From an uncultured Flavobacteriales bacterium (GTDB taxonomy: Bacteria; Bacteroidota; Bacteroidia; Flavobacteriales_D; Parvicellaceae): a DNA stretch of 64,000 bases. This document shows positions 1-4,733 of this stretch, in pieces (the first letter of the stretch is position 1; each line of letters starts with the position of its first letter). The stretch covers positions 1 to 64,000 of the forward strand of contig CALSMU010000006.1 of the NCBI GenBank assembly GCA_943787535.1. Reading direction: 5' to 3'. The notes below the pieces were generated by a model, which saw nothing but the letters and a program-made list of their open reading frames with translations, searched no databases and was not told the DNA's origin. The translations under genes were made by a program, and so were the position numbers.

Positions 1-40
1 GGCTAAACTGCGTTTTAATGCAGTATAGGTGTTGTTATGC
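1..40. other. attC-like imperfect hairpin, 3' part, at window edge
   Basis: Bases 3-11 and 20-28 form a stem (CTAaACTGC with GCAGTaTAG, one mismatch) around an 8-base loop, and the right arm continues to GTTATGC at 34-40. The left arm is cut by the window edge. On the minus strand this reads GCATAAC followed by a hairpin, starting 16 bases after the stop codon of the lipoprotein gene, which is where an integron attC site would sit. The resemblance is structural only; GTTATGC deviates from the GTTRRRY core consensus, and no integrase is visible. Confidence 0.35.
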
Positions 41-56
41 TTTTTTATATAAGTTA

Positions 57-980
57 CTAGAAACATGGAGTTTTAACGTAATTATTGGAGTTATGATCAA
101 TGGTAAAGTTAAATTTCTTTGAATCTTTCCACCTTGTGTATTCTACATAATCCCAAATACCTTGATGTGTTAACTTATAACTTCCATTTATTTTACCATC
201 AATGAATTCTAAATACCAATCTTCATCCATTGGAATTATTCCATCGTTTTCTTCAAATACTTTTTCTTCTCCAAAAAATGCCGGTATCAAAGTAATGGGT
301 TCTGCCATACCTTTGTATTTTATTTGTAATGCTTTGGAATTACTATCAAAACCTACCCAAATCATCATTTCTTTCTTATTATCATTTGTATAACAGATAT
401 AGTGTTCAATCTTTTCATCAACACTTGTAGGTACTTTAGTGATATCTCCATTCATTTTTATACGATATTTTTCTGCAACTGTAGTATCATCTAAAGTAAG
501 TTCGCTATGAAATGGTTCTCCACCCCATAATTCATTTTGAACAGATATAATGGTATCTTCTATAAATGAAAAGGACTTTGTATGGCAAATTGGTTCATTG
601 CAATCGTCAGTTTTGTAAATATTAAAATGGTTTAATTTTTTTCCTTGTAAATCGTAAATGATAATTTTTGATGTGCTCATATCCGAAATTTCGATTGAAC
701 TTATAAAAATTTCATCTACTTTTTTGAAGGATTTTCCTATTACAGATTCTGGAGTATTTTCATTAGGATTATTACCAATAAATTTATCGTACAAAGAATT
801 TGGAATGCTTTTGTTTTCATGATGCAGCGATTGAAAATACTCAAAACTTAAAGTGTCTGGTATTATACTATCTGTGGATTGTTTTAACGAAGATGAAGTT
901 TTGTTTTTATCTGTTGTTTTATCCTTACAGGAAACTGATAGAATAATTAAAAAGATAAATATTATTGATTTTGAGTTCAT
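57..980 (-). CDS. Putative lipoprotein of unknown function (possible cassette gene)
   Basis: About 307 residues. The start at 980 (MNSKSIIF) is preferred over an ATG 48 bases upstream because it places a lipoprotein signal peptide first, with a lipobox LSVSC and Cys at about residue 18. The rest is a soluble, probably periplasmic or outer-membrane-anchored protein rich in Lys, Asp and Ser, with no motif I recognise. Two internal CxxC-like cysteines occur in a DDCNEPIC stretch. The gene is isolated, transcribed away from its neighbour, and flanked on both sides by GCATAAC/GTTATGC hairpins. Function unknown; the lipoprotein assignment is the firm part. Confidence 0.7.
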   Translation of the reverse strand: MNSKSIIFIFLIILSVSCKDKTTDKNKTSSSLKQSTDSIIPDTLSFEYFQSLHHENKSIPNSLYDKFIGNNPNENTPESVIGKSFKKVDEIFISSIEISDMSTSKIIIYDLQGKKLNHFNIYKTDDCNEPICHTKSFSFIEDTIISVQNELWGGEPFHSELTLDDTTVAEKYRIKMNGDITKVPTSVDEKIEHYICYTNDNKKEMMIWVGFDSNSKALQIKYKGMAEPITLIPAFFGEEKVFEENDGIIPMDEDWYLEFIDGKINGSYKLTHQGIWDYVEYTRWKDSKKFNFTIDHNSNNYVKTPCF

Positions 981-1004
981 AATGTTGTTCCGATTAATAA
1001 TAAA

Positions 1005-1048
1005 GCATAACGTAGTGCTAAAACACATATGTGTTTTATCCTACTATG
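1005..1048. repeat. Imperfect inverted repeat with perfect 20-bp palindromic core
   Basis: The core at 1019-1038 (TAAAACACATATGTGTTTTA) is a perfect palindrome. Outside it the arms keep pairing with bulges: 1012-1015 GTAG with 1041-1044 CTAC, then 1006-1009 with 1045-1048. The left arm begins GCATAAC at 1005-1011, the reverse complement of GTTATGC at 34-40. It lies 24 bases upstream of the lipoprotein start codon. A long hairpin with unpaired bases and a conserved outer box is the architecture of an attC site; a transcription-factor operator or a plain repeat is also possible. Confidence 0.5.
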
Positions 1049-1052
1049 GTGC

Positions 1053-1349
1053 AATCTAGTTAAAAATCTTCAAAAACACCACTATCACTAATTTTTACGT
1101 TTTTTAATGTTGTCAAACGGACTTTTTATTTTGGCAAAATCAGATTTCGAAACGTGCGTGTAAATCATCTTATTTGTTTTAAGTGTAACTATAAGAAATT
1201 ATATCGTGGAGCTTAGCCTTTGATGTGCGTTGAAAGTAGGATATTGCTTTTTCTGTATATACAAAATATTAAAGGTTAGAAATAAAAATACTAAAAAGTA
1301 AATTCTGATCTCCACTTTTGCTTTTTCTTTTTTGCCACAGGTTTATTTC
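1053..1349. other. Intergenic stretch without recognisable gene
   Basis: AT-rich sequence between two minus-strand lipoprotein genes. No ORF of credible length, tRNA or clear terminator was seen. Its left end abuts the palindromic repeat. A weak hairpin (GTTTATTT/AAATAAAC) overlaps the stop of the next gene at about 1340-1360 but lacks a clean T-tract. Confidence 0.5.
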
Positions 1350-2048: not shown

Positions 2049-2921
2049 TTAAATCTTTTGAATAATCGGGTTAAAAGCTTTAGAGGTAATCATTACTTTA
2101 TCTCCTTCAGAAAGGTTGGAAGCTTCTTCGTTCGTAGCAATTACCTGAATTATATTATTGTTTGAGAGTATGCTAACAATATTGATGACGTCTGAGGGTT
2201 GTATGGAAAGGATAGTACCTATCGTTTTGTATTTTCCTGTAGTTTTTTTGTCTAGAAATAATTCTTCTGGAGTTCCTTGCTTTAGAATAGAGCCATTCTC
2301 CAATTTTATGACATGATCCGATAGTTTAAATACTTCCGAAATATCGTGACTGACTAAGAAAGTGGTTAGGCTATATTTCTTATGAACTTTTAAAATATAA
2401 TCTTGCAGTTTAATTCGCATTTCACCATCTAAAGCAGATAAAGGTTCGTCTAAAAGCAGAATGCTTGGTTTTTGGACCAATGCTCTTGCTAGTGCAACGC
2501 GTTGTTTCTGACCTCCCGAAAGTGTTTCTGGTTTTCGATCCTGCAAATCAGTCAGTTCGATGGTTTGGATTAGCTCGTTAATAACATCTTTCGATTGACC
2601 TTTGTTTAAAGCAAATTCGAGATTTTCTTTTACCGTCATATTTGGGAAAAGCGTGTAGTCTTGAAAAACAAAACCAACTTTTCTTTTTTGTGGATTAAGA
2701 TTGATTTTGTTAGTTGAGTCAAACCAAGTGGTTTTGTTGACTGATATGGAGCCTGAATCTTGTTGGGTCAATCCTGCAATCAATCTTAAAATAGTTGTTT
2801 TTCCTGCTCCCGAGGAGCCAAAAATAGATACAAGTTCACCTTTATTGATCGTGCAGGAGACCTTTAGGTTAAAATTTCCGGTAGTAGAAAGTAGTCTTTT
2901 ATGGATGTCTATTTCTATCAT
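2049..2921 (-). CDS. modC: Molybdate ABC transporter ATP-binding protein ModC
   Basis: 290 residues. Walker A GSSGAGKTT at about 35-43, Q-loop FVFQDYTLFP, ABC signature LSGGQKQR at about 134-141, Walker B ILLLDEP at about 154-160 and a switch histidine in FLVSHD identify an ABC ATPase of the CysA/ModC type. The C-terminal 65 residues (TIGTILSIQPSD onward) resemble a single shortened TOBE/Mop module, so the protein is shorter than the roughly 350-residue enterobacterial ModC. It powers molybdate import with ModB and ModA encoded immediately upstream; its start overlaps the modB stop by 4 nt, implying translational coupling. Confidence 0.92.
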   Translation of the reverse strand: MIEIDIHKRLLSTTGNFNLKVSCTINKGELVSIFGSSGAGKTTILRLIAGLTQQDSGSISVNKTTWFDSTNKINLNPQKRKVGFVFQDYTLFPNMTVKENLEFALNKGQSKDVINELIQTIELTDLQDRKPETLSGGQKQRVALARALVQKPSILLLDEPLSALDGEMRIKLQDYILKVHKKYSLTTFLVSHDISEVFKLSDHVIKLENGSILKQGTPEELFLDKKTTGKYKTIGTILSIQPSDVINIVSILSNNNIIQVIATNEEASNLSEGDKVMITSKAFNPIIQKI

Positions 2922-3589
2922 CTTGAAAATTTATTAGAGCGATTATTGTTGATGTAAACCAATAGTAATATAGCAAATGTGACTGCTAGTAGGATGCCAG
3001 AGTAAACATGTGCTGTAGAGTAGTTGAGTGATTCAACTTCATCATAAATGGCAATAGAAACAACCTTAGTTTGGTTCGGGATATTACCGCCAATCATTAA
3101 TACAACACCAAACTCTCCAACTGTATGAGCAAAAGTAAGGACAATTCCAGTTAAAATAGATTTCTTGATGTTCGGGATTAGCACCTTTGTAATTGTCTGG
3201 TATTTAGATTTTCCTAAAACAAAAGAGGCTTCGGATAACGAAGAGGGTAGGCTAGCGAATCCAGCTTGTAAAGGCTGAACCATAAAAGGCAAGCTGTATA
3301 TAATTGATCCAATTACCAATCCCGAGAAAGAAAAGGCTAGTTTTAAACCAAAAACATCGTTTAGAAAGGATCCGATTCCGCTCTCTGGACTGAAAGCAAT
3401 CAATAAGTAAAAACCCAATACAGTTGGAGGAAGAACTAGAGGTAAGCTAACGATGGCTTCAATTATTGGTTTTATTCTCGACTTAGTGTTTGCCGTCCAA
3501 TATGCTAGTGGTATGGAAATAACCAAGAGAATTACTGTTGTACTCAAGGCTAGTTGTAGTGTTAATATGATAGGTGACCAATCTAGCAT
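2918..3589 (-). CDS. modB: Molybdate ABC transporter permease ModB
   Basis: 223 residues with about five hydrophobic transmembrane segments and an EAA-type loop (SEASFVLGKSKYQTITKVLIPNI region, about 138-160) that docks to the ATPase. Size and layout match ModB permeases. It sits between the Mop protein gene (7-nt overlap) and modC (4-nt overlap), so the whole set is one translationally coupled operon. The motif LMIGGNIPNQTKVVSIAIYD near the C-terminus is typical of molybdate and tungstate permeases. Tungstate as the alternative substrate cannot be excluded from sequence alone. Confidence 0.92.
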   Translation of the reverse strand: MLDWSPIILTLQLALSTTVILLVISIPLAYWTANTKSRIKPIIEAIVSLPLVLPPTVLGFYLLIAFSPESGIGSFLNDVFGLKLAFSFSGLVIGSIIYSLPFMVQPLQAGFASLPSSLSEASFVLGKSKYQTITKVLIPNIKKSILTGIVLTFAHTVGEFGVVLMIGGNIPNQTKVVSIAIYDEVESLNYSTAHVYSGILLAVTFAILLLVYINNNRSNKFSR

Positions 3590-3984
3590 TCGGATAGGAT
3601 GATTTCGTTGGTTTTAATCAAGGCAGTTACAGTGTCGTGGTATTTTAAATTGAGATTTTCAATACTTCTAGTAGTGATTATAGAAGATAAATTAACACCG
3701 TTAAAATCCAAATTCACCTGACTTAAGAGTCGTCCTTTTTTTATTGAACTTATAGTGCAGGTTAATTTATTTTGAGCACTGATATTGAGTATCTTGTCAC
3801 TGGATATTATTACTTCGGTTTCTTTAAATAGTATTGCTATTTCATTTCCGATTTCCAAATAAGAATAGTCACTAGGTTTGCCAATAATTATGGCTTTCAT
3901 TTTTGTTTGTTGAGCATTCAGTTCTATCAACAACAATTCACCGTGACTATTGATTCCTTCTATTTTGCCTTTTAGTCGATTCAT
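3583..3984 (-). CDS. Stand-alone di-Mop (molbindin-like) molybdate-binding protein
   Basis: 133 residues made of two TOBE/Mop-like halves (about 1-66 and 70-133). Each half begins with a basic-hydrophobic strand (MNRLKGKIEGINSHGELLLIEL; LTCTISSIKKGRLLSQVNLDF) followed by a strand pair and an I-x-I-I-S segment, the layout of molbindins that bind oxyanions. It has no DNA-binding domain, so it is not a ModE regulator. The gene overlaps both modA (4 nt) and modB (7 nt). A role in buffering cytoplasmic molybdate, or as a detached regulatory domain of the short ModC, is inferred from context. Confidence 0.75.
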   Translation of the reverse strand: MNRLKGKIEGINSHGELLLIELNAQQTKMKAIIIGKPSDYSYLEIGNEIAILFKETEVIISSDKILNISAQNKLTCTISSIKKGRLLSQVNLDFNGVNLSSIITTRSIENLNLKYHDTVTALIKTNEIILSEC

Positions 3985-4733
3985 TCTTCAGGGGTTAAAT
4001 AACCGTATTTATTTAGAATTTCTGAAGCTCTTTCGGAAAATAAAAAATTATAAAAAGCTTTTGCTTTTTCTGGGTTAGTCGATTCTTTTAATAGCACAGC
4101 CGCTTGAAGAATTTCCCCATGCTCATTTAAATTGATTGTTGTCCACTTTCCAAAAGTTTTCATTTTACTATATACAACTACAGAGTATGCGGTAAAACCG
4201 ATATCTGCGGAACCTGTTGTGATAAATTGATTTACCTGTGAAATACTTTCTCCAAATACTAATTTGTGTTTTACTCGCTTATATATACCGTTATGTTTCA
4301 ATACATCGATGCTCGCTTTTCCATAAGGAGCGGTCTTTGGGTTGGCAATTGCTATATTTTTTATAGTGTCTGTTGTTAATAGGTTTATAGTTGGTGTGAA
4401 TTCTTTTAACGTCCATAATCCTAATTTTCCCTTTGCATAGACTTTTGGTGCTGACGTTGTTAGTCCCAGAGAGTCAAGATAGGCAGGATATTTTGTGTTT
4501 GCTGATACAAAAACATCAAACGGTGCTCCTTGTTCTATTTGGGAAGTTAGCTTGCTAGAAGAAGTAACTATAAGTTGAATATTAATGTCATTGTCCTTTT
4601 TGAATTCAGAAACAATTTCACTCATAGCGAATTGCATATTTGCTGATGTCGCAATATTTAAAGTGTTTTCATTACTGCAACTAGTGATTAATGCAAACGA
4701 AAGGCTTATAAATACTATGTGTCTAAATTTCAT
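3981..4733 (-). CDS. modA: Molybdate ABC transporter substrate-binding protein ModA
   Basis: 250 residues. A lipoprotein signal peptide ends in ITSC (Cys19), as expected for a binding protein tethered to the membrane. The mature part starts LNIATSANMQFAMSEIVSEFK and contains VTSSSKLTSQIEQGAPFDVFVSA, the ModA-type Ser-containing oxyanion pocket, followed by the IANPKTAPYGKAS segment typical of the family. First gene of the operon; its stop overlaps the start of the Mop gene. The 89-base upstream gap must hold the promoter, but I saw no convincing molybdenum-cofactor riboswitch there. Confidence 0.93.
   Translation of the reverse strand: MKFRHIVFISLSFALITSCSNENTLNIATSANMQFAMSEIVSEFKKDNDINIQLIVTSSSKLTSQIEQGAPFDVFVSANTKYPAYLDSLGLTTSAPKVYAKGKLGLWTLKEFTPTINLLTTDTIKNIAIANPKTAPYGKASIDVLKHNGIYKRVKHKLVFGESISQVNQFITTGSADIGFTAYSVVVYSKMKTFGKWTTINLNEHGEILQAAVLLKESTNPEKAKAFYNFLFSERASEILNKYGYLTPEE

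Follow-up and report, generated by a model that had tools for sequence, protein, structure and literature searches.

Integrons, of which the chromosomal integrons of Vibrio are an example, consist of an integrase gene, an attI site, and cassettes that carry attC hairpins with R and L boxes and are joined at GTT. The ORFs of the cassettes point in one direction, and the R'' and R' boxes at the two ends of a cassette are complementary to each other. All of these features recur in the system described here. In the canonical R-box consensus, the pairing spans 7 bp. The IntI of Treponema carries the IntI-specific patch. Bacteroidota are listed among the phyla with integrons in passages of three reviews (PMC8618304, PMC9668308, PMC2426708). 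In excerpts of a survey performed with the standard tool, the phylum is credited with only integrases without cassettes, and then with one complete integron, in Salinibacter (PMC9024848). Partial attI copies distant from the integrase, known as Delta-attI, still recombine according to an excerpt of another study (PMC12901181). No description of the present system was contained in the matches listed in the open-licence PMC literature, as far as their excerpts go, which does not establish its absence in print.

The window, meaning the whole stretch of 64,000 nucleotides that was analysed, originates from an uncultured Flavobacteriales bacterium. Its base 1 is base 1 of contig C6 in a genome (G000) of 25 contigs and 3.15 Mb. 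Positions 1-1168 are very probably one docking site of a distributed integron run by a XerA-like recombinase outside the IntI family, as judged from sequence comparison. The features of this region are as follows.

1..1011, minus strand: single-gene cassette, from the GTT box (G at 1011) to an attC cut by the contig end
1..43, minus strand: truncated attC, with the R'' box at 34-43 and the stem-loop CTAAACTGC...GCAGTATAG; the 3' box R' would fall outside the contig
57..980, minus strand: cassette ORF, 307 aa, putative lipoprotein
1005..1011, minus strand: R' core GTTATGC, with a presumed exchange point between G and TT
1012..1087, minus strand: attI-like site of about 75 nt, holding a 20-bp palindrome at 1019-1038
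1063..1168, minus strand: decayed remnant of an integrase 3' end, spread over two reading frames and overlapping the attI-like site

Read along the minus strand, the anatomy and orientation of the locus are apparent: the integrase 3' remnant (1168-1063) is followed by the palindromic conserved site (1087-1012), GTTATGC, the ORF (980-57), AAAGCATAAC, and a stem-loop truncated where the contig ends. A preliminary description had placed GTTATGC at 34-40 and GCATAAC at 1005-1011, with a single lipoprotein gene in between that has one hairpin directly before its start codon and the other directly after its stop, and with a 20-bp palindrome in the right repeat. All of these elements are present: the lipoprotein-like ORF (57-980, minus strand) has its start beside the right repeat and its stop beside the left, and the palindrome is located at 1019-1038. 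Both hairpins had been taken for attC sites. This reading holds for the left one, an attC cut by the contig end, of which complete homologues exist on C24 and C9. The right one has to be reassigned: it is attI-like and is joined to what remains of the 3' end of an integrase gene. A transcription terminator was considered for the palindrome and rejected by eye, as the palindrome is AT-rich and without a T-run. No Pfam match at E <= 0.01 was obtained for the 307-aa ORF.

The end boxes of the cassette (34-43 and 1002-1011) are complementary over 10 bp. Such a match between the two ends is expected if the cassette was once circular. The right repeat occurs at seven places in the genome, the window included, while the left repeat is matched on C24 (three places), C9, C10, and C16. 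A second copy of the 1013-bp cassette is located on contig C24 (1008/1013 identities), in a same-strand array where it is flanked by a 107-aa and a 404-aa gene, and the homology between the two copies stops two bases past the R' core. The complementary boxes, the recurrence in the genome, and the second cassette copy place the repeats of the window beyond chance. The longer repeats listed within the window (best 20 of 27 direct families) resemble ordinary partial matches. Contigs C6, C14, and C16 (L022, L023) begin either at an attI or attC site or within one, as they would if cassettes vary between copies or cells. Further along the window, translations at 2049-4733 read as an ABC transporter ATPase, a permease, a small protein, and a periplasmic binding protein, which looks like a molybdate uptake operon.

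The search for a tyrosine recombinase, proposed in the preliminary description, led to an intact gene on contig C3 of the same genome (L015, 8880-10061), which does not encode a canonical IntI. Its frame comprises 393 aa, and the protein measures 376-393 aa depending on the start codon. The stop codon is directly followed by the same palindrome and GTT as in the window. The attI-like site of the window is 95% identical to the C3 site over the 75 nt before GTT. In tblastn, the adjoining remnant matches the integrase in two frames, over 22 aa (100%) in one and 13 aa (77%) in the other; at the DNA level, it matches with 88% over 160 nt (1168-1009). Directly past the primary attI on C3 (L015, 10301-11936), an HTH regulator and a C5 cytosine methyltransferase are encoded, possibly a restriction-modification cargo.

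Seven attI sites were found in this genome, one with the intact integrase and six as stubs. With the C3 site as reference, ten further sites were aligned, four of them from sister genomes (four genomes in all). Identity to the C3 site is 87-95% over the 75 nt before GTT at all ten, ranges from 29 to 95% in the integrase coding part, and is lost after GTT. All attI copies of the genus have the 3' end of the integrase gene in front of them, about 70 nt of it being left at C11. At four of the seven sites of G000 (the window, C9, C10-42163, and C11), the start of the first cassette is matched downstream by a complementary box of 9-10 bp; at C10-42163, the attC is followed by GTA, not GTT. C3 and C10-85901 show own-end matches of only 6 bp, the C3 contig ending 4.5 kb further on, and the C14 site is cut by its contig end. 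A stub in the sister genome G002 has a 10-bp own-end match 0.5 kb downstream.

Comparison of the genomes shows that cassettes and attI sites have been re-paired between species and that some sites are empty. At the primary locus, where about 0.4 kb of upstream sequence matches, G000, G001, and G003 hold three different first cassettes. G003 has an orthologue of the G000 stub at C9, with both flanks in common but a different cassette. The cassette of G003 at this locus is the 660-bp cassette that G000 holds at C11, so that cassette and attI are 99% identical over 751 bp at non-orthologous attI sites. The flanking DNA of G000 and G003 is 80-95% identical at three compared loci. The C11 locus is empty in G003 and G002, with 33 nt between the flanks versus 5.3 kb in G000, and a 1.46-kb distal part of the C11 array is present at another locus of G002 with 95% identity. 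At the C10-85901 locus, G003 is empty, and the stub present in G002 is the same but its inserts are dissimilar. Both genomes in which this locus is occupied show a duplicate of about 50 bp of the end of the neighbouring gene, which starts exactly at a GTT that looks like that of the last attC. The stubs may have originated through copying of the integron, or through an island-like insertion with gene-end duplication at one site. In G002, a stretch of about 1 kb occurs twice (L187, 6841-7910 and 8641-9662) downstream of that genome's own integrase, which is 45% identical to the C3 enzyme; these repeats match the C11 array of G000 at 97-98%.

The predicted C3 integrase lacks the IntI-specific patch of about 42 residues. 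In the comparison with VchIntIA, 19 residues separate two aligned stretches, versus 62 in VchIntIA, and the match to TIGR02249 falls into two pieces (about 6-179 and 242-314) that skip about 180-240. The distance from the GKG lysine to the HxLRH histidine is 64-65 residues in 78 of 88 patch-less rows (62-73 in the others, with one truncated at 44), and 105-107 in 20 of 21 IntI rows (87 in the remaining one). In a quick tree with midpoint root, a branch with an SH-aLRT of 100 sets the 21 patch-bearing rows apart from 87 patch-less rows. With 228.7 bits, the integrase scores below the curated integron-integrase cut-off of 265 bits. A protein over the TIGR02249 cut-off is encoded in none of nine array-bearing or sister genomes, some of them incomplete, versus all five canonical-IntI control genomes. 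A TIGR02249 search of 199 genomes of the order gave no match at a threshold at which the controls were likewise silent.

The scores for XerC (186.9 versus 335.15 bits) and XerD (191.9 versus 329.6 bits) are also below their cut-offs. The XerA_Arch equivalog NF040815, described as 'site-specific tyrosine recombinase/integron integrase', is matched with 237 bits, above its cut-off of 220 bits. By family models, the predicted enzyme is XerA-like. For its N-terminal region of about 95 residues, Pfam gave no match. The profile NF011946, searched in the window's own genome, also matched all 14 controls and hence does not discriminate. For the L112 relative, a fold was predicted with a mean pLDDT of 81 and a pTM of 0.59. 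In a search with this fold, XerA (PDB 5hxy, 4a8e) ranks first by E-value and Vibrio IntI fifth, whereas the TM-score by query length is higher for Vibrio IntI (0.51-0.52) than for XerA (0.40-0.41); the fold search therefore does not separate XerA from IntI. In the tree, ten patch-less integrases from other phyla, mainly Pseudomonadota, form a clade located among those of Bacteroidota (L154, L157, L158, L160, L165, L170, L172, L176, L181, and L183). In nine of these ten, the end of the integrase is followed by a frame reading EVADIFR or near it, which we take to be the start of IS91-type transposases. Given this resemblance, patch-less relatives can belong to other elements.

An integrase at E <= 1e-60 was found in 29 of 60 relatives, the own genome included, and a scan of named genomes yielded at least 80 integrase loci, the upper half of which is mostly from Bacteroidota. 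Of the Bacteroidota loci, 22 have at least 1.5 kb downstream. At six of these (L112, L140, L115, L106, L119, and L131), a chain of 3-6 cassettes starts no more than 700 nt past the integrase stop, and the other 16 have no chain of three cassettes within reach. The cassette walker often lands in real arrays when started from random GTT sites, so dinucleotide shuffles and a held-out covariance-model test were used instead. Among the shuffles, which covered all 56 loci examined, 0/280 reached three cassettes and two reached two. At L112, L115, and L106, the chain begins directly after a hairpin; the arrays of L130 (seven cassettes) and L108 begin further downstream. The longest ORF lies on the array strand in all 40 walker-found cassettes with an ATG ORF of at least 50 aa, and four others are without an ORF. 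A strict hairpin of 9 pairs stands before GTT after 16 of 64 integrases from Bacteroidota or the window's order (1.5 expected), after 1 of 21 IntI, and after 1 of 16 other integrases.

The attC sites of the Bacteroidota loci are mostly 110-125 nt long, and presumably mostly VCR-like. RNAalifold applied to 20 of them yields a 13-pair stem with internal bulges. A covariance model (R1) built from attC sites of related arrays gave 68 matches in 57 loci, among which the truncated attC of the window is not included. For a comparison of each attC with its own cassette end, 61 of the 68 matches were entered, omitting 4 reverse-strand shadows and 3 duplicate places in overlapping loci; the 20 training sites were excluded from held-out counts, and an own pair required a preceding model attC within 6 kb. 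The 5' box of held-out sites matches the start of its own cassette with at least 6 of 8 bases beyond GTT in 17 of 22 cases, versus 4 of 41 for the start of the next cassette and 103 of 2440 (4.2%) in an all-against-all comparison. In the named loci, all 43 non-shadow matches lie on the integrase strand and 41 of them downstream of the integrase; for held-out matches, the counts are 23/23 and 21/23. The only upstream matches in named loci are two in L106 (Arcticiflavibacter luteus), at 905-1031 and 2595-2717. A search of four loci at Rfam gathering scores returned no attC family; at L091 (9647-9713), the DUF805 RNA motif exceeded its gathering score. Co-occurrence of integrase and R1-model attC was absent, with attC in 12 of 29 integrase-positive versus 14 of 31 integrase-negative relatives. 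This test is weak because many genomes are fragmented, the filters were stricter, and the model misses the short attC type of the genus (0 matches in G001-G003); it still lends no support to the claim.

Further hairpins ending in GTTATGC, whose absence was one half of what would have spoken against the preliminary description, were found in the same genome and in relatives, and with the arrays and the integrase present in both, a cassette of integron type between recombination sites remains the best reading. At the sequence level, an attI adjoins the integrase and the cassette junction lies at GTT, as in canonical integrons; attC sites with R and L boxes, whose R'' is complementary to the start of their own cassette, are found as well. 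By anatomy, the system would work like an integron, but its integrase falls outside IntI in the membership tests applied. In the proposed mechanism, the C3 recombinase would excise cassettes at folded attC hairpins as circles in which R'' and R' of the same cassette are rejoined, and would insert them at G^TT of the attI hairpin just past its own stop codon. The scattered attI copies with decayed integrase tails would also receive cassettes, the one in the window being an instance. We infer that the C3 integrase performs the reaction, cuts at G^TT, and works on the folded single strand of attC, and likewise that the stubs are in use and served by this enzyme rather than left over. For the wider phylum, the chances appear evenly balanced that these loci represent a Bacteroidota integron lineage whose Xer-type recombinase needs no IntI patch to handle folded attC and whose integrase gene is followed, in several lineages, by a hairpin attI, and in which the window's genus forms a network, with a single integrase that supplies at least seven landing sites, six of which carry stubs of the integrase gene.

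The scatter of the palindromes over many places would also fit interspersed repeats of MITE-like or REP-like type that flank genes by chance, with no integron involved. Plain repeats of this kind were rejected, as they are contradicted by the own-end complementarity in held-out sites; with the strand bias, the adjacency to integrases, and the sharp GTT junctions also speaking against them, this explanation is extremely improbable. A different objection concerns the enzyme. Excerpts of two papers state that the patch is necessary for integron recombination (PMC9668308, PMC8138268), and integrase and attC do not co-occur over the 60 relatives, as would suit arrays that are CALINs moved in trans by a canonical IntI, the adjacent patch-less recombinase being an unrelated Xer-like enzyme. 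This is improbable given that no protein passes the TIGR02249 cut-off in such genomes (0/9, some incomplete, versus 5/5 controls). Moreover, the patch-less gene lies directly before attI and in array direction in several lineages, and its 3' end stands before each attI copy of the genus, even where about 70 nt are left, as at C11.

The stubs could, in turn, be dead remains of former complete integron copies, with the C3 site alone active. The integrase homology beyond about -75 has decayed unequally (29-91% identity in stubs) and a duplication of about 50 bp of a neighbouring gene end flanks one insertion, both in line with such an origin. We consider it rather unlikely, as all sites retain 87-95% identity over the last 75 nt, orthologous stubs carry different cassettes in G000 and G002 and, at another locus, in G000 and G003, and a 99% identical cassette is common to a stub of G000 and a non-orthologous stub of G003. 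A comparably doubtful proposition is that the two copies of the window cassette are an artefact of assembly or strain mixture. Positions 1-6638 of C16 repeat 6628-13265 of C24 at 99.97%, beginning exactly at a cassette boundary, which fits an artefact; however, five of the 1013 positions differ between the two cassette copies, whose neighbours are not the same either, and the main argument is independent of these copies. If arrays with patch-less integrases are common in Bacteroidota, a large cassette pool is being missed, because detection asks for the patch. The extent to which the patch is required for recognition of folded attC would also become testable, as would possible multiple origins of integrons from Xer-like enzymes.

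The system differs from canonical integrons in its integrase, which is without the IntI patch, outside the IntI clade, and under the family cut-off. In addition, the attI takes the form of a hairpin directly behind the stop codon of the integrase in this genus, and the box pairing often covers 9-10 bp. The transcription of the integrase towards attI, in cassette direction, is a trait in common with the chromosomal integrons of Treponema, as described in a passage on these (PMC3607928). XerA-type tyrosine recombinases (NF040815; PDB 5hxy, 4a8e) give the best sequence match and the best fold E-value, and likewise have no insertion in the catalytic domain; the present system is distinguished from them by the extra N-terminal region of about 95 residues, the adjacent attI with cassette arrays, and the several dispersed sites. 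The Delta-attI cassettes of class 1 and 2 integrons resemble the stubs in being partial attI copies away from the integrase. According to an excerpt, they are mostly attI pieces of less than 20 nt that end cassettes inside an array (PMC12901181), whereas the copies described here comprise about 75 nt plus an integrase tail, occupy separate chromosomal loci, and stand before the first cassette.
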